Source: Massospora cicadina
Taxonomy: Eukaryota; Entomophthoromycota; Entomophthoromycetes; Entomophthorales; Entomophthoraceae
Direction of reading: 5' to 3'
NCBI GenBank assembly: GCA_022478985.1
Contig: JAKSZP010005281.1
Coordinates: 248,001 to 312,000 of the forward strand
DNA length: 64,000 nucleotides
Numbering within the stretch: position 1 is the stretch's first letter; each line of letters begins with the position of its first letter. The notes below the pieces were generated by a model. That model did not search any database. It saw only the letters and a list, made by a program, of their open reading frames with translations, and was not told the DNA's origin. Below are positions 24,265-60,349 of this stretch, piece by piece. A program made the position numbers and the translations under genes.

Positions 24265-24280
24265 AGAAGTTGGTCAATTA

Positions 24281-24327
24281 TTTTTTAGTACTAGATGGTC
24301 CCAACCTGAGGGGGATTCATCGATGTA
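24281..24327 (-). mobile_element. Micro-retroposon tag, copy 1 (47 bp)
   Basis: Flanked by the 16-bp direct repeat AGAAGTTGGTCAATTA (24265-24280 and 24328-24343). Read on the minus strand it begins TACATCGATGAATCCCCCTC, continues through GGTTGGGACC and ends ATCTAGTACTAAAAAA. The A-tract sits against the duplication, as for LINE-mobilised RNAs. One of the two longest copies. It interrupts old gypsy coding sequence. Confidence 0.85.
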
Positions 24328-24487
24328 AGAAGTTGGTCAATTATGATAGAAAAAACATATAAAATATTGATATCATTTCAAGATATAATATATAGTAAAA
24401 AAGCAAAATATAAAAGAAAAAAGAAAATTATAAAAACTAAAACAATAAAAACATATATCACACCTGATTAATAGCTATTGTTCACTC

Positions 24488-24503
24488 TCAGGAGGGGAGG
24501 GGA
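24488..24503 (+). promoter_or_regulatory. Polypurine tract before LTR D2
   Basis: TCAGGAGGGGAGGGGA just upstream of LTR D2. An A-rich stretch precedes it, as before the element C tract at 31721. It marks the 3' end of element H. Confidence 0.6.
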
Positions 24504-26026
24504 TATGGCACCCAATCCATCAGCGATTTAGGCCAACCTTAATACTATGTAGTGCAGCCTTATATTTGTTGGCAAAGCAGGATGAAGTCCAAAGCTGTTT
24601 GTTGACACTCAATGCAAGATAATAGCGAATCTCAGGGCTTACGTTCAAGTCAAGTGAGGGGAAATATCAAATTCTGGTAGTTAACTTGAGAACAACCCCT
24701 TCAAACTATCAAATATGGGCTTATTACCCTGAAAATATACCCTTTAAACCTTTAACTCAGACGGTTTACCCTTTTAATTACTTGGGGTAATTACCTATAC
24801 TTCAATTAGGTTAATTACCCTTACATAACTCAGCCCATATTACCCTTACAACAAACAGCAATTGGTCCCAATTTTCTGTGCAAAGTATCAACTTTTTTCG
24901 AGAATTTCTTTGGGATAAAATCCTAAATCAGCTAAAAATCTCATGGACCAATAACTACAATAAGATTTCCAATTATTGCAGTCAGTTTTCTGCTCTGTCA
25001 AATTTTGTACATCATTGCTTGTGGTCACCATGATAGCACTTGCTCATGGACAGCCCAAATAGAAGTCCTAGTGCTATTAAAATCCTGCATCAGCTCAATT
25101 AGAAGGATGTCACTATGCTTAAAGTAAAAGCGAATTTTATCTAATCATCATGTTTTGTCAGCTGTATATAAAATTTGATAGCACTTGCAAATGGAGAGCC
25201 CAAAGGGGAGTACATAGTGCTATCAAGAGGCTACCAATTTTCCAATTAGGGATACATCATTAAGCTTTATCAATGCAAATTTCTTCCAATAAATTTTATT
25301 TCGTCAGCTGTATGAAAAAATAGATAGCACTTGCACATGGACAGCTTAAATGGGAGTACCTATTGCTATCACTAGGCTACTGAAATCCCAGTCGGGGTTT
25401 TAAAACTTATCAATTCTATTTTTTCTAATAATTTTATTTCATCAGCTTTATGATGAAATGATAGCACTTGCACATGGACAGCCCAAATAGGAGTACCTAA
25501 TGCTATCAAGAGGCTACCAATGTCCTTTATATGAATATGTCATTAAGCCAAATTAATGATAATTTCTTCTAGTAATATTATTTTGTCACCTGTATGACGA
25601 AACTCAAATTTGCTGACCTTAGGAAAAATTATCACTTTAAAGTTGCAATTTTTTTACCTAAAACCATTGCAATTTTAAGAGTAATTTGCCACCAATAGTC
25701 CTAGTAAAAGGCCATGGTCATATCAGTTTAAGGGCCAAACTGATTTGGAAAATTATATTTGCATAATTTTTATGCTTAAAGTGTGGTCAAGAGATGCCTG
25801 GAGATATAAATATCCCTAATTATCAACTTGATCAGTATTTCGTGGATCATTCCAAGTTTAGCGTTGGACCACTAATCAATTGGGTTTATTTATTAAACTA
25901 TGGATAATAGTCCCTATACTATTATCTCCCATCTATCTATTACTATCAAGAAATGAGAATTGTTCATATAACAAAACCTGTGCTGTTAACTTCTGGAAGC
26001 GACAATCAAGAAAAACAGATAAAACA
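24504..26026 (+). repeat. LTR D2: 3' LTR of element H and 5' LTR of element C
   Basis: Left edge set by the polypurine tract, right edge by CA at 26026 and the primer site. From about 24676 it matches D1. A TATAAATA box lies near 25805. After it the sequence switches to an R-U5 that matches 36273-36478 (GTGGATCATTCCAAGTTTAG and GTTAACTTCTGGAA), not D1. It contains four 145-bp tandem units. One LTR serving two neighbouring internal regions suggests a tandem array formed by recombination. Confidence 0.7.
25031..25605 (+). repeat. Four tandem units of about 145 bp in LTR D2
   Basis: Units start TGATAGCACTTGC near 25031, 25176, 25322 and 25459 and share AGCCCAAATAGGAGTACC, GCTATCAAGAGGCTACC, and a TTTATTTTGTCAGCTGTATG end. 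LTR D1 has only two, starting near 14682 and 16024. They lie upstream of the TATA box and could be enhancer-like repeats. Confidence 0.8.
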
Positions 26027-26028
26027 AT

Positions 26029-26045
26029 TGGTGCTCACTACAGGG
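26029..26045 (+). promoter_or_regulatory. Primer binding site of element C
   Basis: TGGTGCTCACTACAGGG two bases after the LTR end. The first seven bases equal those of the element A site at 567. Confidence 0.6.
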
Positions 26046-26059
26046 TGTAGTTGGGTAAG

Positions 26060-27345
26060 ATAAGCCTATCCACAATGTCATATAAGGACGAATTAAGAAA
26101 GGTATGGACGGAATTAGCAATCATCAATAAGAACGCCTGGAATTCAGCTGATTGTAGAGAATTTGCTGCTCTAGAGGAGAGAGTTACTAAGATTGAGAAA
26201 GGAGTAAAATAAGCATCAGTATTTATCAATGAGCTACTTGGAACAATAACGTCCCCAAAAAAAGAATGAAGGAGAGTTGATCAGAGAAGTTTTACCTGAA
26301 AACGGAATGCAAATCAGATTAATCCAATTGTGCTCACTCAGTATGGACATGAAACGTCTAGTGAAACAAGTTGATGAACTGAAGAATCAGAAATGCAGAT
26401 GTGAACCCTATCCGGTGAATGACGCTAAAAAATACTCCAAGAACTCCAGTTGTGAAGTCAGCAACTCCTAAAAATATGCTGACTGCATTTATACCATTTT
26501 GGAGATGTTCCCCGAGATTACTCCTCTAGTTAGTTGGGTATCTGATCCATAAGTGGCAGCTAAAAAAATTTGAAGGAATTCAAAGCCACGCCAAAACTAC
26601 CCACTTTTCATTGAGATAACGCTCCTGCGTTCTTCTTCCTGTTTGACATGGCTATGTTTGAGTGTGACAATAGACAAAAAGCTGTGAAAGTCATGAACTG
26701 CTTGGATACTGGCTATCAAAAGTTGTTGTTACCTCATCTTGAGGGAGACAGCTGGTCCCATTCTGAGGACAAGGTTGCAATTATGAAAATGTTTGGAAGT
26801 TCATTGCATATGTAAAAATGCAAGCAAAAATTCATGGGGATCCAATTCCTGAAAGACGAAACCTTAGCAAATTTTGCTGACTGATTCTACCAAGAATCCT
26901 AGATTCTGGTCAGAGCAAAAGTCTTGACCAATTTTGATGTGCAGATTACATTACAAGAAGCTCTTCAGCCTTATTGCAATTTGTATTAAATGATGTCTTA
27001 TGCACTAGTAACCAAAATAACCACCTTTCAAATGGTGGATCAGCTGAAGATGTTAAGCGCCACGTTTGAGGCCCCTATTATAAGCCTTAAGCAAAGACAG
27101 TCAGAAATTCAAATACCATTTAAAATTTGCTGAACCCATTAAGGAATCGCCCAATTGAGCAGTGCCAGGAAAAGAAACAAGTGGTTCAAAAAACAAGACA
27201 AGATTAGCATGCGCTTTCACCAATGTGAGGGGAAGGGCCACTTCACTACTCAGTGCTTCATCAAGAAGCCTAAGGAGAAAATTATTGTGGTGCAGGCTAA
27301 AGAAGCCAAACCCGCACAAGAGTCAGTAAAAGGACCCACATCCTA
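26060..27345 (+). pseudogene. gag: Gag of element C
   Basis: A Lys-rich N-terminal part with coiled-coil character (MDMKRLVKQVDELKNQKCRC near 26342) leads to a capsid region near 26560-26900. Residues there include KVMNCLDTGYQKLLLPHLEG, with frameshifts. The knuckle near 27206-27250 reads RFHQCEGKGHFTTQC, where Arg replaces the first Cys of CX2CX4HX4C. A Lys-rich tail follows. Broken by several stops. Confidence 0.65.
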
Positions 27346-27454
27346 GACGTGAGACAGTCTAGATATGCAATTAAACCCATTTCTCCCAATATCATGAACA
27401 ATGACATTGACTTCAGCAATCTGTTTGTCAACAATGAAATGTAGGGACAACTTT

Positions 27455-27500
27455 TTTTTAGTACTAGATGGTCCCAACCCGAGGGGGATTCATCGATGTA
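27455..27500 (-). mobile_element. Micro-retroposon tag, copy 2 (46 bp)
   Basis: Flanked by TGTAGGGACAACTTT (27440-27454 and 27501-27515). Same sequence and same 5' end as copy 1, with one transition (CCCGAG against CCTGAG) and one fewer A in the tail. It is between Gag and protease of element C. Confidence 0.87.
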
Positions 27501-27779
27501 TGTAGGGACAACTTTATCAAGTGGCCAACCTAGATTTCAGTGCTGTAATAAGAGCCATAGTGAAGGGGATTGATCCTTAAATATTTAAGGAGGTCGCTCG
27601 CCCATATGAATGTTAAATAGTGGATAAGATCTGATCTGCTGAAAATCTGAATGGACTGGTCAAGGTCAAATTAGATGAAGCAAACCTGTTAATTCCCTTA
27701 AGCGCGATTAAGAAATCTTTTCCTGATTTGTCATCTCAGATAATTTACATTCTCAATTCAGCAAATAACGCCGCTATAC

Positions 27780-28120
27780 AATAATTAAACACTATTTTAC
27801 AATACTCTAACTGTACATATACTGATATACTGGTCAATCAAGTATGGGTGTGAGTATTTATTGAAAGCAGGGCGCAGAACATTATTATCTTGACCAAGTT
27901 AGTGAAAAATATGGAAATCTCGCCAGATTTGGAACAAGAAAGAATATGGGATTTCTTGGCCTGATACTACCATCTCCTGTAGAGCGTATAGCACATTGCC
28001 TCTCAGATTTGGATCCTTGGTGGTATCTGGCCCATCTATAGTTTTGGCCAACCAAAGCTACAACATTCTAATCAGAACTGAGTTTTTAATGAATGTATGG
28101 AGTTAAACGCAATTTTGAGG
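27780..28120 (+). pseudogene. Aspartic protease of element C
   Basis: The region of the active site reads FIESRAQNIIILTKLVK near 27857-27910, where a D-S-G-A-x-N box is expected, so Asp became Glu and Gly became Arg. The C-terminal motif NILIRTEFLMN near 28065-28095 replaces ILIGT-FL. Position between Gag and RT supports the call. The enzyme is dead. Confidence 0.55.
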
Positions 28121-28814
28121 ACATTATATTGACTATATTGGGTCAAACGCTGCCTCTGGTCTATCAGAGAGATGAGGAAACTCAGCTTACCAGGAAATTT
28201 TTTTTATTAATCTTCTAAAATGATGGCATTGTTTTAATCTGCTACTAATTGGTTGGACGAAATCAGAGAGAAATGCCAACGGAAAACTTGCAAAATAGGG
28301 AATTTTGTTATGAACCAAAGAGTTAAAATACCATAACGCTGGGATTGCAAGTATGGTAGATATAAGATTGACTTTGTAAATACCTTAGTAATTGTATGGA
28401 GAGGTTGGCAACCCAAGGAAGAAGTCCAGAGTAGATTCATCGTTGGCGCCTGGAATAGTGATGCTAGGCCGTTGAGAAATCCAAGATCTCCTAGTGAATC
28501 GAAGCAGAAAATTGATGAAGATTGAGTAAAAGTAGATTGTCATGTTTCTATCTTTTCCTGTAGGCGGTATTGAGAAAATTCCGTGATTTTGGGACCCTAT
28601 CCGATATGGGATTGCCAGCACGGGTTGCTGAGAATATCAATTTGTTGGTCAACTAAGAGCAACTCTATGGTCTGATGGAAAGACAGTAGGAGGAAGTGCT
28701 CAAACTATTTGATATTATTGGAGAATCTTCAATCAGGATGATCATGACTTGGGATTTACAAAGAACGTAATCCATAAAGTTGACACTGGGAAAATTTACT
28801 GATATTGATGATAC

Positions 28815-29640
28815 TGATTTGATGGTCAAAGGCAGCTAAAGCAGTAGCTGAAGAGGAAATCAGCAAACTAGTGGAGCATAGGCTCCTAGATCCGTCATCA
28901 AGCCCCTTGGCGAGCCCTATCTTGATAGTCAAGAAGAAGGACGGCTCTAATCAGGTGGTGATCAACAATCAGAGATTGAGTAAGATTTTGAAGAAGGATT
29001 TGTATCCACTAGCATGAGTCAATGATGCACTAGGCAGCCTGGGATATTATAGTATTTCTCTGTGATGGATCTAATCTCAGGATTTAGTCAAATAAATTTG
29101 CCAATTGAATACCAAGAGAAGTTTGCAAATATAACTGCGCAGGTGCTGTACCAAGTGAACTGAATGCCCCAAGGAATTTGTAATGCGCCTGCGACATTTC
29201 AAAGAGCATGGATGGCATATTTAATGACCTGAAGTTACATTCTTCTTGGTGTACTTTGATGAGATAAATGTTTTCAGTAGAAATTTCACTGACCATTTAT
29301 TTCATTTTTAAGAAGTTATCAAGAGACTATCCACGGGGGTTGGGACCATCTAGTACTAAAAAAAGACTATCCACGGCCAATCTGAAGACCAAGCCAAGGA
29401 AGTGCCATTTCTTTAAAAAAGAGTTGAAATATCAGAGGTTTGTCATTAACTCCATCAATCTGCAGCCGCAAATACATAAGATCAAAGCCATAGAGCGGAA
29501 TGTTTTTCTGAGGAGTTTCCAAGTTATTCAAGTGTTCCTAGGAATAATAAGATATTATTGAAGATTCATATGAGAGTTCACAAAAATTTTCAAGCCCCTT
29601 TTCCATTTGCTGAAGGATCTAATGAAAGGATTTTTATGAA
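28815..29640 (+). pseudogene. pol: Reverse transcriptase of element C
   Basis: Blocks: EEEISKLVEHRLLDPSSSPL and ASPILIVKKKDGSNQVVINN (28850-28970), KDLYPLA, FSVMDLISGFSQINLPIEYQ (near 29060), MPQGICNAPATFQRA, and VYFDEINVFSRNFTDH at 29249-29296. The catalytic VYLDD box therefore reads VYFDE. The thumb reads LKTKPRKCHFFKKELKYQRF. Tag copy 3 (29337-29363) splits the thumb. Upstream to 28120 only linker-like sequence is visible. Confidence 0.8.
29337..29363 (+). mobile_element. Micro-retroposon tag, copy 3 (27 bp, 5'-truncated)
   Basis: Flanked by AGACTATCCACGG (29324-29336 and 29364-29376). The insert reads GGGTTGGGACC, then ATCTAGTACTAAAAAA on the plus strand, so it lacks the first 20 bases of copies 1 and 2 but has the same 3' end. 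Removing it restores the RT thumb. Confidence 0.87.
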
Positions 29641-29699
29641 ACAAAGTGACATAAGATTTAATTAGAGTTACGCCAGTACCTTATAGTTTATTAAGCTTT

Positions 29700-30110
29700 A
29701 AAAAATCCGAGACTCAATTAAGAGTTTATTGTACAAACTGATGCTTTATTGACAGCAATTGGCGCTGTCTTGAGCCAAATGAATGAACTTGTGGAGGAGC
29801 ATCTGGTAGCTTATGTGAGCCAGACGTTATCAGCAGCTAAACGGAACTACACCATTACTGAGCATGAATGCCTCATGGTGATTTATGCCTATAAGAAGTT
29901 TTAGTGTTTATCCATGGCATGCACTTTATAGTGGTGGCGGACCACTCCACCTTGAGTTGGCAGCATAATCTGTAGAACTGGAAGGACGGTTGATCAGATG
30001 GGCACTGAAATTTCAAGCAAATGAATTTTGAAATCATTCAGTGAACAGGATCTGCTCATCAAAATGCGGACATTTTATCAAGGTTACTAATGGTCCAAGT
30101 GGTACACCAT
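29700..30110 (+). pseudogene. RNase H of element C
   Basis: Readable residues: FIVQTDALLTAIGAVLSQMN, LVAYVSQTLSAAKRNY, TITEHECLMVIYAYKKF, FIVVADHSTLSWQHNL, GSAHQNADILSRL. Catalytic Asp in QTDA and ADHS are kept. Frameshifts occur after KKF and near 29975. Confidence 0.75.
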
Positions 30111-30239
30111 TATGCTGATGAACTATTCCAGAAGATGGTTTATGGAGAAATTGGGAACAAGCCCAGAGAAATACAAGGTGCACTTTGAAAAGCGTTGGAA
30201 AACACAAGACCAAGGATGGAAATTTATTTAAGATGACTG

Positions 30240-31340
30240 ACAGAAAACAACTGCTATTTTATAAAAAGTCAGAACGAGTGGAGATGAGATAGTTTAGACA
30301 ACACATAAGTTTGTTGAACATGGAGGCCTGAGGAAGACAACCAACCACATTAGCCATTATTATTACTGGGAGTCTATCAACTATGATGTGGACAATTATC
30401 TGTCCTGCTGCGTGGAATGCTAGTTGCATAAACCACACAAAAACACGACCAGATACTGACCGGTCCGCCCAGGATTTTCCTGATATAGAGTGTTCATTGA
30501 CATGATGGTACTACTGAATATGAGCACTGGGGGAGTCAAATATATCATAGTTTCAATTGGTCATCTGATAAGATGAGTCGAGACAAAATCTAATAAAATT
30601 GGTTGCTACAAGTACTATACAATTCATCCTGGATAAAGTTGTTTAATGCCATAGATACCCACAAGTCTTTTATAGTGACATCAGAACGAATTTCACATCC
30701 CATTTGATCCTGAGGTTGAATGAATTTAATGGAGGTTTGAGAACTAATTCTGTTCCCTACCAGCTAGAAACTAACATACTGGTAGAATGAGTAAATGGAA
30801 TACTGTCCTCAACACTAAGGAGGCTGGTCACTGAGAAAACTTTCTTGTGGGGAACCTACCTCATTTTGGTGACATTTGCATACAACGTTAGTCACCATAC
30901 AGCTATGAGGAAAACGCCATTTAAATTGTTATACAAAAGAAAGGCCATTTTATTGCTAATTCTATATTAAGCAGCTTAACTGACATTGGGGATGAGTGCA
31001 GAGCAGTACCTACTCTGACTAACAAAAATCCTGATCAAAATGTAATCACAAGCATTCAATACAACCTTGAAGAAAAAGATCAAGGCCAAGATGACGGACA
31101 ATAAGAATTGACTAGCATTATGCAAATACCATGTAAGCGATAGGGTAACCTATTGCAATATGCATGGCTTTGGAGGAAGAAACAAATTAGATGCGCTATG
31201 GTCAGGTCCATTTGAGAATATCTCCAAGATGGTGTTGGATGCATATTCCATAAAAAACCTTTCAGTTGGAAGAATGGTGAACTGGGACCATGCGAAGTAC
31301 TTAGAGCAGTGGATCCAAAAAAATATTGATAGTGTCTAAA
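30240..31340 (+). pseudogene. Integrase of element C
   Basis: An HHCC-like part (YYWESINYDVDNYLSCCVEC near 30360-30420) and the core start VFIDMMVLLNMSTGGVKYII near 30490 are visible. Later come FIVTSERISHP in place of the second-Asp box, VNGILSSTLRRLVTEKTF near 30795 and AYNVSHHTAMRKTPFKLLY near 30880. The C-terminal part reads DRVTYCNMHGFGGRNKLDAL and WSGPFENISKMV. The second Asp box is degenerate and many stops are present. Confidence 0.7.
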
Positions 31341-31498
31341 AGGACCACTGAACCATTAATATGGTTATTTCCTGAAAATTTTTGGTTAAGTCCTAAAAAA
31401 GGATTGTTGAACCAAAATAAATGGTTAAGTCTTGAAAAATAAGCCCTTTGATCCATGAAAAGTGGTAGGTCAGATTATATCAAGAAACCAGTTTGAGG

Positions 31499-31517
31499 AC
31501 CATCTAGTACTAAAAAA
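31499..31517 (+). mobile_element. Micro-retroposon tag, copy 4 (19 bp, strongly 5'-truncated)
   Basis: Flanked by AAGAAACCAGTTTGAGG (31482-31498 and 31518-31534); because of the A-tract the exact split could move by a base or two. The insert reads ACCATCTAGTACTAAAAAA. It lies in noncoding sequence between integrase and the polypurine tract of element C. Confidence 0.83.
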
Positions 31518-31720
31518 AAGAAACCAGTTTGAGGGGAATAATAAAAGAAAAGATGGACTGCTGAACTGTGTATAGCTCATGTTATATAAAAAGAGTAAGA
31601 AAAATAATGTAAAAATTGATAAAATGTGGAAAAAAGCAAAAAAAACACTTAAATAGTATATTTTATAAATTTTTATCCGTTTTCCTCAACTTGGGGGATG
31701 ATTCCACCTATGTTGCCTCT

Positions 31721-31733
31721 TGAGGGAGGGGGA
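31721..31733 (+). promoter_or_regulatory. Polypurine tract of element C
   Basis: TGAGGGAGGGGGA directly precedes TGTATGACATT, a likely LTR start at 31734. An A-rich stretch lies upstream, as before LTR D2. Confidence 0.6.
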
Positions 31734-31819
31734 TGTATGACATTAGAAGTGAACGATCCATTAAATCTATTTGTGATCAAACGCTTGCAAGGGCTAGACC
31801 CACCTGAAGCCAAGTTCCT

Positions 31820-32703
31820 TTATACAGATGGTGAGCTTTGAGAGAATGTGACCAGGGGAAGAGAACTAAAAATGTCAGTACTAGCCAACATGATACTCCA
31901 GATCGGGGAGGAAAAAGTAGAAAAGGAAAAGGCAGTTGGCAAATAACCCAAATAATCCCAATATGGCACTGGGGCTGGAAGATTAGTTTTAAGTGCTAGC
32001 TGATGGGCTTCATCAAGGACGTTAAACATGTGGGCTGGCATGGAGCAAGGGATACTGGAAGGAGGTTACCAAATCATGCCCCCAATTAGAGCCATCAGAG
32101 GTAGATAGAAATGCTAAGCGCCAGAGACAAGGTAGTCATGAAATGAGCAAACATCATCCTGAAGGCAACGGCTGCGAGCTTCTTGATATTGGAAACAGAA
32201 TGATAATGGAAGTCAGTAGAGGCCAAAATTTTTGGTGGTCCAACTGCAAATGACTTGGCCCACAAAATAAAGAGCGTAGGATGCAACATCTCAATCTAAG
32301 AAGCTTGAGAAGTTGAGGTTTTCAAAGCCTCAGTATAGGCCTTGGTTACCCTGTTCCTTAAGTCTCTTTTTGGGAGCGCAAAATGTTCTTGATTCCTAAT
32401 AGTTAATTTGGATGAAAACACTGCTGGTTTATAATATTGTCCGAGCCAAAAAAGGAACTCTGCAAGCAAATTTGTCTGGTACAAAATAACAGACTTATAC
32501 TGGATGACATTGCTTCAATAGGCTTAATGAATACAATGGGATTATCTGCAAAAGAAGCCAAATCTAACAATGTTTTAAAGTCCAACTTGGGAATTGATAG
32601 AAGAGGGAGAATCAGCCGCAATTCATTCAAGTTGGTAGCTATTCTGGTTTCATCAGGATTAGATGCCATTTCCAGTAGTTCAGCGGAAGGACTACCTACA
32701 TGA
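31820..32703 (-). pseudogene. Unidentified minus-strand coding remnant
   Basis: Three consecutive minus-strand blocks share direction. From right: MASNPDETRIATNLNELRLI with LPLLSIPKLDFKTLLDLASF (32403-32669), then NLLAEFLFWLGQYYKPAVFS and a basic stretch (32296-32484, other frame), then SFAVGPPKILASTDFHYHSV (32095-32289). A frameshift near 32460 would join the first two. I do not recognise the product. It may be an antisense or inserted gene within the element C LTR. Coding is supported only by the length and continuity of the frames. Confidence 0.3.
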
Positions 32704-34168: not shown

Positions 34169-34182
34169 ATTGTTAACTCTTT

Positions 34183-37936: not shown

Positions 37937-38059
37937 GCTATCCAAATAATGATTTAATTTAATTTATTGCAAGGAAGGCTGACCAGGGGATGGACACTTC
38001 TGAATGTCAACCCAAAAGAAATGAAACTTAGTAACAGGGGAGGCACCCCAGAGAAGCGA

Positions 38060-41000
38060 TGCTATCTTTTGTTGCCAGCGGGAACGCCACTATGGGGAGG
38101 GGGAGGGAACGTGTAAAGGGGCCATAACCACAATCGAACACATGTGGAGGAAAGGGTCCAATTTGATGAACCAAACTGGGAACCAGGAGGAGACCAGCTG
38201 ATGGCGACGCGGTGGGAATACCCAAACATCCACGCCTGAAAGTGGTCTACCAAATGGTACCAGAATCTGTGGACAGCTTCTGGGAGGGTGGGATGGGGCC
38301 TGCTATGGCATCCAAGTCAATCATGTGGATAGTCCACATGGCGATTGTGACCACCAGAGCATGGAGGGAGGGTGAAAGGGGGGATACCATGGATATAGCA
38401 AACATATCTCTTGACATACTGAAGAATTGTGTTTGATCCTGGCCAAGCAGACGTTGAACTTCGCGCCATATCACTTTAGAGGTAGGACACTTCTCCAAGC
38501 GGTGGAACAGCGTTCCATACTGGCCACACATGACGCAGGATGAGTGTAAAGCGTTAGAGCGCTCAGCTGTATGGTACACCCACCTCAGGCAGCGCCACAC
38601 ATGGGAACGTATTTTAGGCTGCAGCAGAGGGTGGTGTGCGTATTTCCAGATAGTCTTTTGGGTCTCAATGGAATAAGGGATGTCCATCATGTCCAGGTAG
38701 TCCACCCTGGATAGGACATGGGGCCGTGTGGGGATCAAGCCATCTTGAATGGGTACCCCTGTACCTCCTGTGTGAACTGAGGAGAGGGGCGGCCTCTCTG
38801 GGCTGTGTGTCCACTAATACGAATTCTCCACTCAGTGCTCCACATGGAGAGGAGGATTCATTTGTAGTGGGTTTTAGTACCGTGAGGACCTGTGGCTGAT
38901 GGGTGGGAAGCCAGATATTTCATCAAGGAGTGAGGGTTCAATGGATTGTTAAGGCCCAGGGCACGGGAGAAGTTGGAGCGGGCTGCGCGGGACCAGTGTT
39001 GGGAGGGGAGTGTAGGGGCGGTGGCGGCCACAATCCAGGTGCCCAGGATCTTGGCAGCATGGGCTTTAAAGATGAGCAGGCCCATGCCACCATGACAACG
39101 AGGGCCAAACATGACCTCAAGCCGCACTGGCGGTGGGCGGCCTGACCATAGCCACCCTTGTAGGAGGGCATACATAGATTTGAAAAAACCCAGGGAGAAG
39201 GCTATTGCATGGGCTCCAAACCAGACTTTGGAGAGGAGCATAGAGTTGGCTAAGACAACCCTGCCAGTAAGGGAAGTAGGGTGGGCTCTGAGGGAGGCGA
39301 TACGCTTCGTCACATTGTCTAGAATAGGACTTTCCATCACTGCTGAGGCATACCCGCCTGCCTCCACCCACACGCCCAGATGGCGGACAGGCCCTATGGT
39401 AGGCCGTGGCACAAAGGGGAGCACAAGTGGGGCGGTGTGGGGTGAGCAGTGAAGGCGAGCATGTGTGCAAGCAGATGGGCTGGGCTGGGCATTGGTCACT
39501 GGGGCCCAGCAGGTTTGATACCAACCAAGGAGGATGATTTCGGTTTTGGAAGCATTCAGTGCAGCATTACTTACCCAGGAATACTCCTGTATGAGAGCTT
39601 CAAGCGCGCGTGCATCTTGATTATTAGACACCCCGACCACACAGTCATCTGCAAACGCCATCATCTTGACTGGGGCTTGGCCTGGTACATGGACCCCAGT
39701 GAGGTGGGCATTCACATTTTGAAGTAGTGGGTCAAGGCTGAAGTTGTATAAGAGTGGGCTAAGGGGGTCCCCTTGGCGTAGGCCCCTTTGAGGGCGGACT
39801 ACTTCCGTTAGAAAGCCAGGGCCATGCACTGCCATTGTTGCAGATTCTGTGAGCAGCATTACCCAGTTGATGAAGTGAGGGGGCAAGCGGAATTGATGGA
39901 GGCAGGCCCTGATATATTCCCAGTTTACTCTATCATAGGCCTTCTGTTGGTCCAAAAATACGAGTGCCCCAGAGGCTGTGGACTGGCATGCGTTAGCCAC
40001 AGAGTGCACGTTGTCCCAAATCGACCTTCTGGGTATGAAACCAAACTGTTTTGGGGAGATGGTGGCAGAAGCTACAGTCCCTTAACGGTTAGCCATGATT
40101 CTAGTTAAAATTTTTGTATCCATGTTAGTTAAAGAGATAAAGGCGCCAGTTGTCTAGGTCTAGCTTATCCCCTTTCTTGAAGAGTGTGACGGTGAAAGCC
40201 TCTTCCCTCCTGGTAGAAGGCGCGTATCCAGAAGGCTCTGGTTAAGGAGGCAAGCAGCAGTGGGGATATATATTTGAAGTACTTTTTAAAGGAACTCATA
40301 CAGAATGCCATCAGGTCCTGGGCATTTCCGATTTGGTGCACCGCGGATAGGCTGACCAGAGTTCATTTAGAGTAATCAAATTCATTAATTCCATTTATTG
40401 GGAAATGGTGCGGATGTGAGTGCTGTTAAGAAATTTCGCCACTTCAGCTGGCTGAATTGGATTGGATCAGTACGGCTTGGAGTGATACTTTTATATTTCA
40501 ATTGCCACTTCGGCTGGCATATCTTTGACAGAATCATCCAATATCCACACCTGTGTGCAGGCCACGCTCTGGCACAGTGCAAAGATTTATATAAAAAAAT
40601 ATGCGGTGCACGTGCCACCCTCTGTAATGTGTTTGGCCCTGTACTGAACACAAACCTGATGTTTGTGTTGCCTTTTGAGTGCGTTGAGGTTGGCGGCTGC
40701 TTCCACCCACTTCTGGCCCCAATCAGGGCTGTAGCCTGTGGCCGGAATGTTAGACTCCAGGTGTGCCAACTCTTCCAGAGCGCGCAAGATGATGGCTGAT
40801 GCAGCTCATGAGCGTCGGGAGGAGAGGTGGCAAGTGTGGTGGATGGTATCCTCTTTGAAGGCTGACCATGTAGAAATTGGGTCCACACAAAACGTTGTAA
40901 TAAACTCTTTTGCTGAAGTTGCTGATTCCACCCAAGTGGAAAATCCTGGTGACGCAAGTTCAGGTGGGTGGAGTTTGCACCAATGCGGGGCCTTAGCCAC

Positions 41001-41714
41001 TGTGACAGGTGAGTGGTAGGTTATCAAGACCAGCCGGTGGTCAGAGAATTCAATTTTTGTTGTTTGGAAGTGGGAAATGTGAGATCAAAATTTCGCCAGC
41101 GTGAGGATAAGGTTTATGTGGGTCATGGACCTTAATTGGCCGTTGTGGATGTGGGGGCGCGTCATGTTTTCAAGCAGCGGGGCTTGCCATGGCAGCGCAT
41201 CTAATAACCCAAGGGTGGCCTTTAGAACGCGTAGTTCTACATGACCCTGGGGGCGTGGGAGGAGGAAGGCCAACGGTCCGTGGGTGTGTTTAGCCAACAG
41301 TTCATTTTGCTGACTACAAAAGGGTCAGGGGGTACCGGAAGGGATTTGACCAAAGAGAAAAATCTCCGACGCTCTCATGCACAGGTCAGGGAATAAATGT
41401 TGACAATAGCATGCGCCACGTTGGCCCACAAGAAATTAACAATGAGGACTCAGCCATTGAGGAAGGATTCCAATAATAAAAATTTAAAAAAATTGTTTTT
41501 CCAAACTAGCACCCCACAGTGCTCCAACCAGAAGGATAAGGAAGGGAGGAGCATGGTTTTCCAAGTGTCCTCAGAACTTCGTGGACAGTGGGTTTCCTGG
41601 ATGGCCAGGATGTCCACGGGTAAATATTTGTAAAAAACTCAGTTTCCTAGCCCAGGATGGCGAGGCCTTGAGTCCGGTGATATTCAACATCCCTAAAGTG
41701 AAGGCTTCCCCCAT
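38060..41714 (-). pseudogene. ORF2 (endonuclease, RT, zinc knuckle) of LINE1 copy 2
   Basis: Starts MGEAFTLGMLNITGLKAS at 41714. The endonuclease region has the CGA codon where copy 1 has TGA. The RT is open for 383 codons (38858-40009): ALVFLDQQKAYDRVNWEYI, QRGLRQGDPLSPLLYNFSL, MMAFADDCVVGVSN. The C-terminal block (38247-38738) includes CVMCGQYGTLFHRLEKC. A stop and a frameshift separate RT fingers from palm near 40085-40200. Same protein as copy 1, also inactive. Confidence 0.88.
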
Positions 41715-41720
41715 CGCACC

Positions 41721-43131
41721 TTAGGTGCGAGGGGGTGGGCACCTGGGCTTATCAGCCTCCTCTGGATCCCCACGGGCCTTCACAGCAGTGTGGGTGCTTG
41801 TGGCAATGCTATCAGTAGTTTTGTTAATTTTATCAGACAGGTTTGCGTTGGCTTTTGCCTTCACTTTTTGTTTCCCCAACAATGAATGAATTTTTTGCGG
41901 TGAGGATGAGTTTGGTGCACCAACATTTGGGTCAAAAAAAATCTTCAGGTAGGTTGGAGACCAAGTTGGTTTCAATTGGGGCTTGGTTGCAAAGGTTGGG
42001 TGAGATCAAGTCGCCCATTGGATCCTCAGATTGGGTGGCCCAATTGGCATGGGCTTCCCAATCTGATTGGTTGAGGTATTCCCGAGTTGCTTCTGCTATA
42101 AAGGTTTTGATGTCCTCCTGGCATTGTGAGTATGGGATAGCGTAGGTGACTTTGGCCACTTCCTTGGCCGCGGCCCTGTGGGCCTGTTTAGCCTTCTTTC
42201 ACTCTTGAGGGGAGATAGGCTTTACTAGTAAGTAGCAGCCTTGTGCTCCCCACGGGAAAGCCTCTTTGGTACTGGTGGTTGGTTCATAGTGCGCCTCCCC
42301 ACTGGCCATGGCCGCTGAGGGGTGCTCTTGGAATGTGATGCCCTCCTTGGTGGGGCATGCATGTGCCTTATGGCCAAACTCGTCACAGTGGGTGCAGATG
42401 GGGGGTGCGCTGTCTACGGTTACCTGGAAAGGGTGGGTGGTATGCCCTTTGATATTAATATAAGTGGAGTGTAGGATCTGAGTTAGGTCCTTCACGATCT
42501 CCTTGGTTGGAGTCAGAACTGCAATTGCTTTGCCAGTGCACAGGTGTGGCATCAGCGTAAAGCATTGCATCTTGAAGGATTGTATTTCACCATATATGAT
42601 GAGACCATTTTTCAGGTTGTGCTCCAGAATAGCATGCTTGACTGTAGTGGGCAAAAAGTTGAACGTGAGGAAAATTTGGTTGAATTTTATCCATCTGGTG
42701 CATTTTGTTTTGATGACCTGTTGCCCTTTGGGGAGGTTGATCACTATGCATACCACAGCAGCTTCGTCTGCTGCCTCCTTGTTTTCAAAACTGAGGTCCA
42801 GCCAACTGCATGACATGGAGTGAGGTGCGATGTACACCACAGTTGGGAAAAAAGTGTGCACATCCCCACAAACTTTTTCCAATAAAGCTGTTTGTTGGAT
42901 ATCCAGAAACACCTGGACTCCGTATTCCACAGATAAGAGTGGTTGAGAGTGCGGTGTGTTGATGTACTGGTTACATTGCGCCTGCCAAGCAAGGATTTCT
43001 GGGGAAATAGTGACCGCCAGTTTTTTACTTTTTTCTATTCCACCAGTTTCTCCGGGGCATTTTCAAACATTGGATGTCGTGGGCCTACCACCTGTGCCTC
43101 TTACCTTAATTGCCCAACTGCTCCCTGACAT
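41721..43131 (-). pseudogene. ORF1 of LINE1 copy 2
   Basis: ATG at 43131; codon 23 (43065-43063) is TGA, exactly as in copy 1. The following 243-codon open segment (42199-42930) reads LNQIFLTFNFLPTTVKHAIL-like sequence and a knuckle CTHCDEFGHKAHAC. Another open segment (41932-42159) covers the Asn/Asp-rich tail, with breaks between. The ORF1 stop TAA at 41723-41721 is six bases before the ORF2 ATG at 41714. Confidence 0.85.
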
Positions 43132-43244
43132 GGGCGCAGACTAATCTCCTCTGTGAGATTATCAAACTAGATTCAGACTTGAATTTCATAAGTTGCAAAA
43201 GTGATTGCAATGAGAGAGAAAAGTGTCGCTATCCAAATAATGAT

Positions 43245-52449: not shown

Positions 52450-53369
52450 TTTTTTTAATTTTATAATTTTTATTCAGGAGTACGTGACTGGAGATGATGC
52501 ACTCAAGGGATGGGATAGGCGAGTAAATGGGAATTTCTAAAGGGGGTGTAAACAGCGTGGTTTGGTGCTATTCACACAACTTTGGCATCGCGCCTTGCTG
52601 TGGGTTGCTGTTGGTGGAGACCTTAGCTGGCTCAGGTAAATGGGCTTTCCATAAACATGTTCGTTGCACTTTGTAAATCTTGTACATGTATGAGATGTCT
52701 CAAGATGCTACTTGCACACGCTGTTTCAGTGGAATGGCATTTTCAAACATCCAGTAGCCAAAGAATTTGTTCAGACTAAAGCGGAAGTTATTGATGGCTA
52801 TATCTGGGTCAGACCTTTGTGGGCTTGCGGTGGCGGCAACCCAGTTACTATGAATTGCCCATAATGCTAAAATGAAAATTATCTTGTTGCAATCAAGGTC
52901 TTGATGCCTTGACCCAGCCTGAAAGAGCCAGTCCTTGGCTATGTGGTTGGGATTTGTGGATCATAGCTGTGTAAATGCACCGCTTCTTCCCAGACTCTTA
53001 CCACTATTTTACATGAAACATACCTGTGGAGCAAAGAATCTTCTTTGTTGAACACTGTGCACTGCTTGTGCGTGTCATTTGAGCGCTCTTCTGTCCAAAA
53101 AAGTCAATTAGTAACTCTTCAATGCAGAATTGTAATTTTGGGTTGGAGTAGAGGCTCACTTGATATTCTCAAGTAGTATTATGGAGTTTGGGAGAGTGAC
53201 TTATTCCCCAGAAATCTAGCGCTGTGATTGGCTGGATTCTTGGGCTTCATAATTTTTATTGGCTGGTGGCGCTGGGTGCCAATTAAGTTTTAGAATTTTT
53301 ATTTTCACCCACAGCCTGTTTTATGAGGTTCAAGTTTAATTTTTGGTTCTACTTTTATTATTTTAAAAT

Positions 53370-56215
53370 ATTAGAGCATCGCCTTGGCCTCAAGTGTTGC
53401 ATCCCATGGCCCTACTAACTCGGGCGTGAACCTATGTAATTGATTAGGGTAATTAGGGATCCTGAGTTCCTGAGAGCTAGGTTTCTGGATATTTGGGTCC
53501 TTGCTGCCAATGCTCATGGAGGCGGACTCCCTTCTTGTGAGGTCGCAGCACTGATCCATTTCATGAATATTTTCGCAGCGTTGCATGAAGGGTCTATTAG
53601 CCCCATCCCGCCTTCATAAATTGGCACCCTTAGTGTGGTGATCCTGGCTGAGGGGGAGCATGAGCCCCAGAACCAAGGTTGTAGAATTGATGTGAGTTTA
53701 AAAAATGCTAAAGGAGATAGCGTGTGCAGGGTACCATATTTTTTAGAAGAGCATAGTATTGGCAAGGCGACATTTTCTAGTCAGAGATGTTTTCCTGAAC
53801 TTCCACCTTGCCATTGTCCTTTGGATATCCTGAAGTAGCTTCTCTTCCACCTCTTGAGTAGCTATACCTGCACTTTTTATGGGGACCCCAGGTGTTTAAT
53901 GGGTTCCTTTGAAAAAGGCATCTGAAATGGTGGTTGGATAAAGCTGTTTTTTACACTTCTACATTTTGCTTGTGTTTGTGACTTTTCTCTTTGTCCTCTT
54001 GTTTTTAGGGCCTTGGCGCTTAGCATCTGATAGCACCAAGGCTTGGGATTTGGTATTGTTGAGTTTGGATTTGGAGGCTATTTCATATAGGCTGATTATC
54101 TCCTCTAACTTTTTGTAATCCGCCTTGGAGGAGACCCCTACACACAGTCATCTGCAAAGGCCAAAACCTTAAGTGGTTTTTGCCCCTTGCACTCAATACC
54201 AGCTAACTGTTTCTCCATCACCCATAGGAGAGGTTAATTGTGAGGTTGTACAAGATAGGGTTAAGCGAGTCCCCTTGACGGAGGCCTCAAACTGGTGTGA
54301 CAGGAGGTGAAATTAATGCAGACCCTAGAACTGAGAAGGTGGATGACAGCTGATGGTTCGCTATCCATGAGATAAAGGGTTTGGAGAAGCCCTGTTTGTG
54401 AAGTATTGCCGCCAAGTATTCCCAGTCAACTCTTTCATATGCCTTAGCTTGGTCTAAAAGCAGAGTGTGCCCTTAGATGCTCCTCCCAATGTGTTTGTTA
54501 CTTGGTGGATGTTGTCCCAAATGCTCTTCCCTGGGGTGAAACCATGCTGTTGTTGGGCAATGCACTCCTTGGCTTTTTCTGAGAGACGCTTAAACATTAT
54601 CTTTCCCATTATCTTCATATCTGCATTGATTAGAGATATTGGGCGCCAGTTGTTAAGGTCAATACAGTCCCCTTTTTTTGTGGAGAACAATGGTATAGGC
54701 TTCTGCGCCTCCTGGTATCACCCTCCCCTCTTGCAGACTTGAGTTAAAGAGATATCATGGGCTTCTTTATTACTTCATAGTGTGCTTTATAGTACTCATA
54801 GGGGATGTTTTCTGGTCCTGATAATCTGTTGGTAGGGAGCCTCCGTAGAACCTGTGCTAGCTCATCCTCCGTTATGGGGTCAAAAAGGTTGGCTAAATGC
54901 TTGGTGTGGTTGGGAACAACATTGATGAATTAGTTATTAGCAGCTTCCTCTGTTGGAGCTGCCTTATACCTTTCTGAGTAGTAAGAGTAGGTGATGGATG
55001 CTACCTCTTCTGGGTTGCTAGTGATTTGGCCTTCGCATGTTTGGAGTTCAGTGAGACTGGCATTTTTTACCTCATTTTGTAAGTTTGATAGAAAACCTTG
55101 GATGGTTGTTCCCCTTTAACAGCCCATCTGGCCCCTGCTTGGAGGGCCTCCATGTGCATTTGGAGTTGATCGTGTTTCTTGACAATTAGTGTATGTTTCA
55201 CCCAATCTCTAGCCCATTGTGCTGAGTAGCCACTATGGGGTGGGTATCTTTCCAGATGGTTTGATGTTCTCTGAGCTTCGGAAAGTTCTGCTATTTTCTT
55301 CCTTGTGCGACGGGATTTTGCATGGGATGGGGTCGGATAGAATTTCTCTTTTTAACCTTTGCCACTGCTTCCATAAGGTATCAGAGTCAGTGCACTTGGC
55401 TAGTTCATCTGCATGTCTTTTTTTCTGATCTTCTACTTGGACCAGATTCACGTTCTTTGACAGCATCCTTTTCCAACGTTGGTTTTTGGGTGGTCTTTTC
55501 TTTGATTGTATAGTAATTTTCACCATTCTGTGGTCTGATAGATGTAGGTCAATTGTTGCAAAATCTTCAACTTATGATTCCAACAACACGGACATGAGTA
55601 TCCAATCCAGTCTAGTGGCGCTGATTAGTTAATTTTATCTAAAATATTTGGTCGCGTCAGATTTGGAAAGTATGATTCCAAGATTGGTTTGGCGTCTAGA
55701 AGACCTCTTGATGTCATTAATTGCTGTAATTAGTTCGATACTATTGGTGGAGTTGAGACATTTGGCCATATGTCACTAGTTCCGTCCAGCCAGCAATTGA
55801 AGTCCCCTAGGTAAATCGTTTCTTCTGGAAGGTTCAAGTCAATTAGGTTTCTCAAAAACTCTTCCATTTTGTTCGCTTCAACAGGGGCATATACTGAAGC
55901 GGTCTGATATGATTGGTTCCCCCATTTGAAGGCCAGAACTAGAACCCTTCCTTCCAAATGAGAGTAGTAGTTGGTGATTGTGATGGAATCTGTTGCTTTG
56001 ACTACAAATCCATAAAAGCTGGTCCAGAATGTTTGCGAAGGGAGAAAGAGCCTGGACCACTCTTCCTCCTTTCCAGTGGTGCACTTGCTCTCCTGCAAGG
56101 CAAGCACATCTACCAGTAGGTTTAGTAGGAGCCCTCATTTCTTATCCAGGGACTTAATGTATGAGATTCCTGCTATCTTGAGAGTCCCAATCATTAAAGA
56201 GCCCAGCTTGCCTGC
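53370..56215 (-). pseudogene. ORF2 (endonuclease and RT) of LINE3
   Basis: Endonuclease: MIGTLKIAGISYIKS near 56190, LALQESKCTTGKEEEW (catalytic Glu), SVYAPVE, and YLGDFNCWLDGTSD (D-x-N box) in the 55730-56107 frame. RT: KKGDCIDLNNWRPISLINAD (54454-54690), the catalytic FADDC box at 54147-54158 intact, and the thumb near 53520-53765. Stops and frameshifts separate the blocks. A C-terminal Cys-rich part is not readable between 52450 and 53370. Confidence 0.82.
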
Positions 56216-56529
56216 TATGACTGCATAGGGTCAGATTGACCCTGTGCAGCTGCGGTAGCTTACTTGTGTCTATCCTAGTTATAGGACCCTCATAAATGGT
56301 TTGGGCTGGTGGTGTAATTGATTGCCATTCTGGTGGCCCAGAGTTCCGATTTGGGTTCTCCATGCAGTGAGCAGTGTTTTACTCCATCCAATTGAGGGTT
56401 GAGAAACTGTTGGCTTGTGAAATAGGTTTGTCAACTGGTACTTAAATGGGTTGGGCTCCATTGTGTACAGGTAGGAAGTGTGCGTCGTCCCTTTCTGATT
56501 AGAATTCCCATTACTCATAATCTTGCGGC

Positions 56530-57610
56530 TGCTGAGCTGTCTTAGGTACGGTCATACTATAGAGGTGCTCTTGTTGTTGCTTAATGTTGCGCTTGGCTGC
56601 TTCCTTCTCCTCTTACTGCTTCTTCTGCTTGGCCTTCTCCGCTGCCCTTCTGGCCTTCTTTGCCTCTTTACGTTGCTCTAGGGAGACTGGTTGGATCACC
56701 TCATAGTTAGCTTGTGATCCCCAGAGGTGGCTGTTAATGCGTCCCTCTGATCTATATCCTTCAGACTTTCTTCACACTCAATAAACTTTCTTCCCTCCCA
56801 TTTAGCCGGACAGGCATTGTTTTTATGCCCTACTTTGTTGCAGCTCGTGCATATTGGCGGGCTCTTTTCTGAGAGGACTGAGAAAGGGCGAGACTGATTC
56901 CCCTTTGGGTCCAAGATGTACGCTTTGCATGGTAATGTTTTGATGTCGCCATCATCACCCATGCTCAGGCGTATCATTGCACAGCCTTGTCTGTAGCCAG
57001 ATGGGGAAGAGGCGGTTTTTCTCCATTTCAAAATAGACTAGCTCTCCATATGCGCTCAGGCCGCTTGTTAGCGCTGCCTCCAGAAAGTCCCAATATTCAG
57101 TGGTTGGGAGTCCTTCTAGTACTACAATCAAGTTTTTATCATCCCAAAAACTGGTGTGTGTAATTGTGATATTGGCTGTAATTTCTTCAGGATCCTTGCC
57201 TACTCTCAACTTATTGTAGGTGACTACAAATGGGGAAGCTATGGCTGCATCTGCGGCCTCAGCAGTAGTGATGCCAAGATCTAAGGTTCCCATTGTGAGC
57301 TTTTCAGACAAGCTTACAGTTTATGGAAAGCGTTCTGGGATAGCCTGACATACTGCTTCATATCATATAGGTCTACAACGCCAAAGTTAATTCGCATATC
57401 AAATTCACGAGAAGATTTGGGAAATGTGTGGCTGATGTTGCCAGTTTGGTGAAAATCTTGGACCAACTTGTTATAGTCACTGATTGGGACATATGGTCCC
57501 GTTTTTGCACTGCGGTTAATGTTGAGCAGCTGGGCCTTCTAGCCCATGCTGTTCCCCTTCATCGCTGCTGCATATGTATGTGAGTTCAGTGGATTCAGTC
57601 GCTTTGTCAT
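56530..57610 (-). pseudogene. ORF1 of LINE3
   Basis: Probable ATG at 57610 (MTKRLNPLNSHTYAAAMKGN). The open part at 56955-57311 reads ITITHTSFWDDKNLIVVLEG and LPTTEYWDFLEAALTSGLSA. A CCHC knuckle CTSCNKVGHKNNAC follows at about 56790-56850. The tail is Lys-rich. It corresponds block by block to LINE1 ORF1. Frameshifts near 57300 and 57010. Confidence 0.78.
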
Positions 57611-57707
57611 CCCCTGATTGGACGGCACAATTAAGACAAGTTGTAATTGATTGAATAAATTTAATCACCTGTAAACAAAAGTGATGCTCATGGGAAAGAA
57701 AAGCTCC

Positions 57708-57900
57708 AGCCCTATTTATATATACAACATTTTAACATAATTACCGACCATACTTCCATGCAATGGCTACAGTAAATGAAGGACCCCGATGGGATATACT
57801 CTGATGGGCGTTAAAACTTTAAGACTACGATTATACATCATTCATTGACCAGGAACCATACACCAAAATGCATATTGCTTATCCAGGCTCCCCATATTAA
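57708..57900 (+). pseudogene. RNase H of element F, right part
   Basis: Continues the domain cut at 52449: YLYIQHFNIITDHTSMQWLQ then MKDPDG and a RWALKL-like stretch with a frameshift. The TDH catalytic Asp is kept. Confidence 0.75.
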
Positions 57901-58369
57901 CTTTTACTGACCCTGGGGAATATCAACTATACAATCTTTTAGCCCAACTGCATTTATGAAAGGCCAGATCCCTGACACTTCAAAAAAAATAAAAAATCAT
58001 CATATATCGAAGTTTGAAACGACCAACTGTATTTTATTTAACCAAGGCAAGCCGACTAGGTGATGGACAATACCAAAAATGAAATTCCAAAATTAAACTG
58101 ACTAAAAAGTAAATAGGAGTTGACTGGCCTTTTTTGGTCAGTGAGACACAAAAAAACGATAAAGTTACCTACCAGGTGGTATAGCGGCGAGCCGCAAAAT
58201 GGCCAACTGTACAAACTCATTTATTGAAAATGGTTGCCCTAAATACAACCTTCATACCAAACTGACATCATATTGGAGGGACATCTAAAAGTCAGCCATG
58301 GGGGATTTGTAAATTTTACCTAATGGCTCAAGACCCAATGTTACTAGTAAGGGACGCTTGTCTCAATCC

Positions 58370-59305
58370 AAGATATACAAGAGTCCTGCCTGGTATGTAA
58401 AAGTCAATCCAGACCTAATCCCTGGCCTCAACATCCAGTGGTTTCACCCTGCAAACACTTCCATAATATTAGCATTGACGTTGTGGGACCCCTCCCCGAG
58501 CCTCTAATGGTCATCAATCCCTCCTTCTAGCCATTGATCATTAAACTAAGTAGATTGAAAGCTGTATCTCTACCCACCTCTTTGACAAAAACTACCACCG
58601 CATTTTTATATAATTGGATTATCACCCAGCATGGGTGCCCTAACATAATTCTCTCAGACAATAGTCAAAATTTTCAAATGTTGCTGGTGAATGATTTAGA
58701 CAAACCAATGGAATCCAATCAAGTATTTTCCACTCCTTTCTATACTGCAACCAATGGGTTGGTAGAGCATGTATCTAGTAATCTAACTTCAACCCTCCAG
58801 TAAATGGCCATGACTGACCCACTTCATTGGCCCCAATATTTGCATAGTGCGATTCTGGCCTATAGAATAGGCTAGCATAAAACTCTTGAGATGTCTCCCT
58901 TTAAAGCGTTGTATGAAAGAAATTCCCAGATTCCCTCTAAAGTGCAGTCCTTGTTAGACCAAGCTACCTCAAAAGCACCCAAGGTTACTATGTGAAGTAT
59001 TGCTAATGAGATTATCCAACTTCAGGACATGGATTCTGAGAACTTATCTGCTACCACTAATAGAGAAATAATCAGTTTAACAATAAAAATGAACCCTTCA
59101 CACTTTCCAACTGGGTGATCTAGTCCTTTTCTACCATAATCGGCCTGGAGGTTGTGATAACAAATAGGGAACCATCTGGTTGGGGCCCTATAAGGTCATT
59201 TATAAATGAGGTTTTGAACACTCAATTGTGGAGGTCGCTCATGATACCATAGTCAATTGTGTACATAATTTCTTTATTATCCGTTTTCCCCCCTGTGCCA
59301 AGATC
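58370..59305 (+). pseudogene. Integrase of element F
   Basis: CLVCKSQ near 58387 is the Cys pair of the HHCC finger. The core begins NISIDVVGPLPEP near 58465 (first Asp). The 89-codon frame 58534-58803 holds PNIILSDNSQNFQ (second Asp) and TPFYTATNGLVEHVSSNLTS (Glu). The C-terminal part reads FQLGDLVLFYHNRPGG and WLGPYKVIYK. It ends just before a short polypurine tract. Broken by frameshifts near 58545 and 58805. Confidence 0.78.
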
Positions 59306-59318
59306 TAAAGGGGAGCGT
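59306..59318 (+). promoter_or_regulatory. Polypurine tract of element F
   Basis: TAAAGGGGAGCGT directly before the TGTCAG of the 3' LTR. A very similar AAAAGGGGAGCAG occurs at about 62803 before another TGTCA. Confidence 0.6.
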
Positions 59319-59882
59319 TGTCAGGATTCCTTCTCAAATTAAAGATTTGTGTTTGTCTGATGAATGGAATCAAACCTAATCTGATGATATAGATAAAACT
59401 ATTGATGGGGATAATCCCTGACTAGATTCAAGGCTTTCTGATATGGGGGTTCAACCTCAACATGTGTAAACGAATATCACTCAACCCAAAACCACTAATA
59501 TTGGGGTTCAAAACTGATCTATGTGGCGATAAAATCCTGTTCAACGGATGTGACCAGAATGCCACAGAGTCTCCAATTGGTAATGAGTATAAATCTTGGC
59601 TTGGAATCTCTTGGGGATTTATTGAAGCAAACTCTCTAGGCTCCCATATAATTATGTTTCTAAGCAAATAAATGACTCTCTATTTGCCATTTACTATTTT
59701 GGCTTACCTCTTTTAAATTAGGGACTAAAATATCTTTAGGATTTACCACTAAAGGAAAGTTACGTTGTATAAAAACTTTTTCAGATAATAAAAGTAATCT
59801 TATAATCCAACACTCTAGGAACTTTGGGTAGATTGGCCTCAATCATAAAGTAAGAGTGGTTTAACACCCCTCTATCCTGACA
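59319..59882 (+). repeat. 3' LTR of element F
   Basis: Partner of 48408-48969. It starts TGTCAGGATTCC and ends CCTGACA. Open frames inside it on both strands are not genes. Confidence 0.9.
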
Positions 59883-60349
59883 ATCCCAAAACTAGGCGCC
59901 ATGAGTGCAACGAGGAAAAGGACAAAGAAATTGGGGGAGCTCAAACCCCAAAACCCCAAGTTTTTGTTCACATGACATAAATTTTGATGAGTCACAGCCC
60001 ATTAATTAAGACAAGGTAAGGGTGGTATAAAGCCACGGGAATAACCCATTATTGGAGTGAAAACTCCAAAGAGAGAATTCTGAATTGAAGCTCATAATAC
60101 GCAGGCACAACCTTCAAAGGTCATCCTGCTGGGGTCCTCTCCTGCGTCATTCTTTATTTTGTTGTTGTATAAAGTTTAGCTCATTTGAGGCACAGACCAG
60201 CGCCTAACCCAAACCAGAACCAAAAATAAATTGAATGATTCAACTTGGGATTCAAAGTATCTGAACCCAAAAAAATAAAACCATCTAGTACTAAAAAAGT
60301 ATCTGAACCCAAGTTTAAATGCAACAATTAGTTTCTCCCAATTATAACA
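59883..60349 (+). repeat. First LTR of element G, right part
   Basis: Continues 48407 and matches 61193-61606 (AGGCGCCATGAG, CCTTCAAAGGTCATCCT). It ends ATAACA. It contains tag copy 5, which the second LTR lacks. With tag and duplication removed the whole LTR is 683 bp. Confidence 0.8.
60271..60295 (+). mobile_element. Micro-retroposon tag, copy 5 (25 bp, 5'-truncated)
   Basis: Flanked by AAAGTATCTGAACCCAA (60254-60270 and 60296-60312). The insert ends ACCATCTAGTACTAAA; its first ten bases are A-rich (AAAAATAAAA) and do not match the other copies, as untemplated bases at a LINE 5' junction might. The sister LTR at about 61540-61570 has the single unduplicated site, so this is a real insertion. 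Confidence 0.85.

Follow-up and report, generated by a model that had tools for sequence, protein, structure and literature searches.

Minute insertions of the 3' end of an L1-like retrotransposon, and an all-or-none spectrum of its copy lengths, in the fungus Massospora cicadina

Why long interspersed nuclear elements (LINEs) truncate, and when their enzyme turns processive, is an old question, which has been approached mostly through limited sets of cell-culture insertions and through longer copies. Truncated LINE copies are usually 100-1,000 bp in length (PMC3747384), and in Anolis carolinensis an L1 element that has not stopped before reaching 1 kb tends to be complete (PMC5389967). In the stringent-type L1 elements of plants, which belong to the monocot lineage, a conserved, hairpin-forming 3' end of ~45-50 nt is thought to be recognised by protein (PMC3747384), and the tailless retropseudogenes of mammals are short, L1-made insertions with target duplications (PMC5322556). 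Among the entomophthoralean fungi that have been compared, Massospora cicadina is unique in having a substantial L1 LINE fraction (6.3%; PMC11105155). Here we present an analysis of five minute inserts, or tags, in a stretch of 64,000 nt from the 1.47-Gb assembly of this fungus (GCA_022478985.1, contig JAKSZP010005281.1, positions 248,001 to 312,000 of the forward strand; hereafter the window), which, judged by their continuity with longer genomic copies, derive from the very 3' end of an L1-like LINE (~6.4 kb) that we term LINE-A. We show that the 3' end of LINE-A has been copied throughout the genome with target duplications, 5' truncation, insertion in two orientations and an all-or-none spectrum of lengths.

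Like LINE copies truncated during target-primed reverse transcription (TPRT), the tags have a 3' end that is constant and a 5' end that varies, together with an A-run, target duplications and both orientations. They differ from the usual products in size, most measuring only 11-44 nt, and hardly any copies of 50-1,400 nt accompany them. The L1 of Anolis and LINE-A are alike in being all-or-none, but the early class, which lies below 1 kb in the former, ends at ~44 nt in the fungal element. With the stringent plant elements LINE-A has in common an L1-clade affiliation and a short 3' domain, whose recognition by protein we only suppose in the case of LINE-A; in contrast to them, no partner among the short interspersed nuclear elements (SINEs) was found for it, and the accessible part of PMC3747384 is silent on micro-insertions. 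The tailless retropseudogenes, as characterised in PMC5322556, are without the 3' end, derive from various RNAs and were collected with a set minimum of 30 nt, whereas in the LINE-A tags it is the 5' part that is lost and the 3' end that is retained.

All five tags end in ATCTAGTACTA followed by an A-run, and perfect direct repeats of 13-17 bp stand on both sides of each. An earlier note on this DNA had located them correctly, with insert lengths, including the A-tract, of 47, 46, 27, 19 and 25; three lie on the + strand and two on the - strand. It had also recognised the marks of retroposition in the target-site duplications, the fixed 3' end, the variable 5' end and the two orientations, as well as a preferred 5' end shared by the longest tags, which is indeed sharp and lies at (T)ACATCGATG. 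Its view of the tags as an independent micro-element is not supported: longer copies in the genome run unbroken from the same 3' end into LINE-A, the very outcome that the note itself had said would make them ordinary truncated copies. Nor does its suggestion that they were mobilised by the nearby L1-like LINEs hold, as the LINEs of the window are a different family with only 35-38% amino acid identity to LINE-A in the reverse transcriptase (RT) region and another 3' end.

The 3' end of LINE-A reads ACATCGATGAATCCCCCTYGGGTTGGGACCATCTAGTACTA and is followed by a short A-run. Three of the first eight genomic loci examined around matches to the tag core (L004, L006 and L008; such loci bear L-numbers throughout) continue upstream of ACATCGATG into a common sequence, L006 with a one-base variant. 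When 11 copies were aligned upstream of ACATCGATG, ten matched over the full 700 bp taken and L008 over ~500 bp. The LINE-A copy in L046 is 6,442 bp long and has a 15-bp duplication, and L048 holds a near-full copy with 97.9% identity over 6,036 bp. Separate frames of L046 gave Pfam matches to an endonuclease (PF03372, E 8.2e-06), an RT (PF00078, E 3.6e-33) and zf-RVT (PF13966, E 2.4e-06), in an order that places the APE-kind endonuclease before the RT and the zinc-binding stretch after it. Among solved structures the LINE-A RT is nearest to human LINE-1 ORF2p (E 1.6e-37, versus 2.4e-28 for R2 proteins), and by the Pfam match and this ranking, rather than by a tree, it is assigned to the LINE-1 kind. 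Its best database match, at 40%, carries the label of the plant Thalictrum amid many fungal matches and possibly comes from a contaminated record. The first frame of LINE-A encodes 644 aa without a Pfam match, is 25% identical to its counterpart in the window LINEs and has a CCHC-like motif recognised by eye only. In the first-frame region there is also a tandem duplication of 376 bp (2080-2455 and 2458-2833 of L046, ~94% identical), which is seen in L048 as well.

The 11-base core ATCTAGTACTA occurs 37,677 times in the genome (18,754 + 18,923), versus 980 occurrences (462 + 518) of the reversed pattern; taking the difference of the two counts, ~36,700 copies (36,697 net) exceed the background. 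Of the first 69 core places listed we took 68 as a sample, leaving out one (C4:164265) already known to be long. Five of the 68 proved to be long, and 55 of the remaining 63 are flanked by duplications that span 12 bp or more and contain no more than one mismatch. The duplications of these 55 verified tags have a mean length of 16.5 bp (range 13-21 bp) and show 21 mismatches in 907 positions, a figure biased downward by the one-mismatch limit. They begin with A in 53 cases and with AA in 43, which makes the target sites of the TT/AAAA kind, on counts that leave the base before the nick untallied and are affected where the start of the duplication overlaps the A-run. In a set analysed earlier, an exact flanking repeat of at least 10 bp was present at 35 of 49 distinct cores versus 5 of 2,352 flank-swapped pairs, and a looser control, which covered every A5-8 run on a single strand of the long loci and may itself include real tags, found a repeat at 22 of 560.

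Unoccupied paralogues, without the insert and without one of the repeats, were recovered for tag 3 in L050, L013 and L047 and for tag 4 in L050; tags 1 and 2 have no empty site among the loci examined. The "clean empty site" that the earlier note had claimed for tag 5 turned out to be a weak match (69% identity, E 5e-4) reaching only ~8 bases beyond the junction. Two individual tags deserve mention here: a 39-nt tag at ~1530 of L031 lies inside another LINE-A copy, LINE-A having thus inserted into itself, and a 41-nt tag at ~1530 of L030 is without a detectable duplication and is possibly a chimera.

The lengths of LINE-A copies look all-or-none, with almost nothing between 44 nt and ~1.5 kb. 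Among the 55 verified inserts, 42 fall at 11-29 nt, none at 30-38 nt and 13 at 39-44 nt, the last group being broadened by a C-run of variable length within the terminal domain. A second set comprised 57 tags with exact repeats, partly chosen by the exact 41-mer, and all 18 of its fully templated longer-class tags end at nt 40-43. At the lower extreme, the insert in L002 has only nine body bases, and copies of this type are missed by the 11-base count. Net counts of words at increasing reach from the 3' end tell of the same gap: 36,697 at 11 nt, 17,324 at 19 nt, 6,933 at 40 nt and 2,176 at 47 nt, followed by 3,171 at 70 nt, 3,103 at 242 nt, 3,130 at 1,461 nt and 2,422 at 6,146 nt. The 47-nt count is below the 70-nt count because the 40- and 47-nt words hold CpG and undercount. 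By these counts there is no measurable loss of LINE-A copies between 70 and 1,461 nt, and roughly three in four long copies extend to within 300 nt of the 5' end, provided that all words decay at one rate. Per nucleotide, the apparent fall-off comes to ~0.04 up to 70 nt and to ~0.00004 past it. This gap in the lengths is more surprising than ordinary truncation, and it survives the loss of the micro-element reading.

We consider it probable that the tags are hyper-truncated TPRT products of LINE-A, whose copying aborts in the terminal domain and is processive afterwards. The ORF2p of LINE-A would nick the target, prime on the short A-run and usually drop off within the terminal 41-nt RNA domain, stopping either at ~11-29 nt or near nt 41, where the domain has its 5' edge; the site would then be completed normally, leaving behind a tag with a full duplication. 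Beyond ~44 nt the enzyme would continue, in most cases until close to the 5' end. The terminal domain is probably held by ORF2p or folded, in a pattern that resembles the abortive initiation and escape of RNA polymerase. The LINE-A enzyme seems either to stop nearly immediately or to copy thousands of nucleotides, and tens of thousands of minute scars are left behind. More speculatively, and with rather less confidence than we place in hyper-truncation as such, we posit a checkpoint like promoter escape: aborts would be frequent as long as the 41-nt domain is anchored, each being sealed with a full duplication, and the fall-off would become about a thousandfold lower thereafter, or, alternatively, the 41-nt class would be mobilised as a discrete RNA. 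Under the checkpoint reading, tens of thousands of individual abortive TPRT events would be recorded in the genome at single-base resolution.

Several points weigh against hyper-truncation by an aborting enzyme. The drop-off is deduced rather than directly observed, and the sharp 41-nt end would fit a short RNA template as well. Eight of the 63 non-long tags are without a duplication of at least 12 bp: L073 and L074 are two copies of an unrelated sequence, L055 has a repeat of 11 bp, L061, L066 and L070 have repeats of 9 bp, and L045 and L093 have none. The exact-word counts hinge on the mutational loss of each individual word, with two of the LINE-A words containing CpG, and the 6,146-nt word was picked from only two copies. 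Copies of intermediate length, such as that of ~506 bp in L008, are rare but present. As to what might halt the enzyme, a hairpin (GAUG...CAUC) is predicted in the terminal domain, and in this model the shortest stops fall at or within its 3' strand and the 41-nt stop ~5 nt past its 5' base. It is, however, no more stable than shuffled sequences (z +0.32) and, though present in 11 of 12 folded long copies, is missing in the twelfth. On both these grounds we reject the hairpin as a proven cause of the stops and retain it as a guess, and an anchored RNA domain that the enzyme has to strip is at least as good a reading.

An alternative is that a discrete RNA of ~41 nt with a short A-tail templates the ACATCGATG class as a minimal non-autonomous retroposon, with the shorter tags being truncations of that RNA or of LINE-A RNA. 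Such a putative RNA, starting at ACAUCGAUG, could be a LINE-A 3' fragment protected by ORF2p or by its fold, or else a transcript in its own right; it would be far smaller than any retroposon known to us, and we regard it as unlikely. The sharpness of the 5' end speaks in its favor, with 18 of 18 tags at nt 40-43, although most of these had been selected with the exact 41-mer, a choice that sets the lower bound and leaves the upper one free; so does the drop in net counts between reach 40 and reach 47, each of these words containing CpG. Nevertheless, a strong stop on a long RNA accounts for the same 41-nt end, and the majority of the sample, namely the 42 of 55 inserts at 11-29 nt, is shorter. 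An additional 5' T in tag 1, L020 and L024 is as expected at the end of a template, but a single untemplated 5' T is also found in 5 of 29 short tags of the second set, where no template end is supposed. These junction T's could have been added by the enzyme without a template; such an activity has been studied in a silkworm R2 protein (PMC8857657). Of 17 fully templated short tags, 12 show no microhomology at the 5' junction, and neither do 11 of the 18 tags of the 41-nt class; informally judged, there is no clear excess.

Far less credible is the proposal of a SINE family with an overlooked 5' part, of which the tags would be the LINE-derived tail. SINEs sharing a LINE tail are common (see also PMC3747384), and upstream of the L030 tag that lacks a duplication there is a stretch resembling a tRNA B box. 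However, all 11 copies aligned upstream of ACATCGATG are LINE-A, and no common non-LINE 5' sequence was noticed in the flanks of 38 loci. The 5' body of its own and the pol III promoter that mark a SINE were not seen, the tags having no 5' body and the window no tRNA. Rfam likewise returned no match in the window or in L046, and with both the Rfam search of these and the tRNA search of the window empty, a known RNA as the source of the tags was also rejected. We give the least credence of all to deletion remnants or repair patches, whereby pieces of LINE-A were captured at breaks or are leftovers of longer copies: no point in support of this was found, and it is opposed by the marks of TPRT, that is, the fixed 3' end, the 13-21-bp duplications (55 of 63), most of them starting with AA, and the empty sites of tags 3 and 4.

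The two LINEs of the window, which constitute a second L1-like family, offer an internal control. Over 5,293 aligned nt they share 83.5% identity; each has apparent target duplications around it, and both end in CAATAAAT rather than ATCTAGTACTA. The frame at 20698-22047 on the - strand matches two Massospora cicadina proteins, one with 85% identity over 64% of the frame and one with 66% over 68%. On the strength of this match a plant was rejected as the host in favor of Massospora cicadina or a near relative, an insect-pathogenic fungus with a giant genome. No 3' excess is seen in this family: its 3'-end words number 7,031 and 6,152 net versus 14,836 for a word ~95 nt upstream, both 3' words holding CpG, following one version of a variable end and missing tags below ~10 nt. 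Of 37 CAATAAAT places examined, five match the 3' end of the window LINEs, and all five are long copies. We reject micro-insertion by every LINE of the host, as the window's own family is without a 3' excess, and hence the effect seems to belong to LINE-A and not to the host. The contrast between the two families points to the element's own RNA or enzyme.

Truncation of LINEs is already known; within the literature searched, what is new is the scale, the barrier at no more than 44 nt from the 3' end and the minute size of the inserts. The search yielded no description of numerous LINE insertions of 11-44 nt, with most subscription journals outside its coverage and absence accordingly unproven. 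With LINE-A, one family supplies more than 30,000 natural early stops whose ends are defined, and it indicates that a full target duplication can be completed after the copying of only ~11 nt of RNA. Scars this short likely evade repeat masking and pass as small indels; hence, similar records may lie unnoticed in other genomes.

The positions of the tags, their target duplications and the two LINEs of the window are collected in Table 1.

Table 1. LINE-A tags, flanking target duplications and LINEs in the window (position 1 is the first letter of the 64,000-nt stretch)
Feature	Position	Strand	Description
Tag 1	24281..24327	-	42-nt copy of LINE-A 3' end + 5 A; ACATCG class, one additional 5' T
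Tag 1 target duplications	24265..24280 and 24328..24343		AGAAGTTGGTCAATTA; directly flank insert
Tag 2	27455..27500	-	41-nt copy of LINE-A 3' end + A-run; ACATCG class; also within locus L033
Tag 2 target duplications	27440..27454 and 27500..27515		TGTAGGGACAACTTT; second boundary uncertain by one base
Tag 3	29337..29363	+	22-nt copy of LINE-A 3' end + A-run
Tag 3 target duplications	29324..29336 and 29364..29376		AGACTATCCACGG
Tag 4	31499..31517	+	14-nt copy of LINE-A 3' end + A-run
Tag 4 target duplications	31482..31498 and 31518..31534		AAGAAACCAGTTTGAGG
Tag 5	60271..60295	+	14-nt templated copy of LINE-A 3' end + A-run, preceded 5' by 9 A-rich, untemplated nt
Tag 5 target duplications	60254..60270 and 60296..60312		AAAGTATCTGAACCCAA
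Two window LINEs	about 16931-22213 and 37953-43224	both -	Second L1-like family, ~5.3 kb

A scan of the window for inserts between repeats, using A4-12 runs, inserts of up to 80 nt and exact repeats of at least 12 bp, returned only tags of the LINE-A family. Elsewhere in the genome, at ~1210 of L028, an A-rich insert of 14 nt that is not of the LINE-A tag kind lies between direct repeats of 14 bp.

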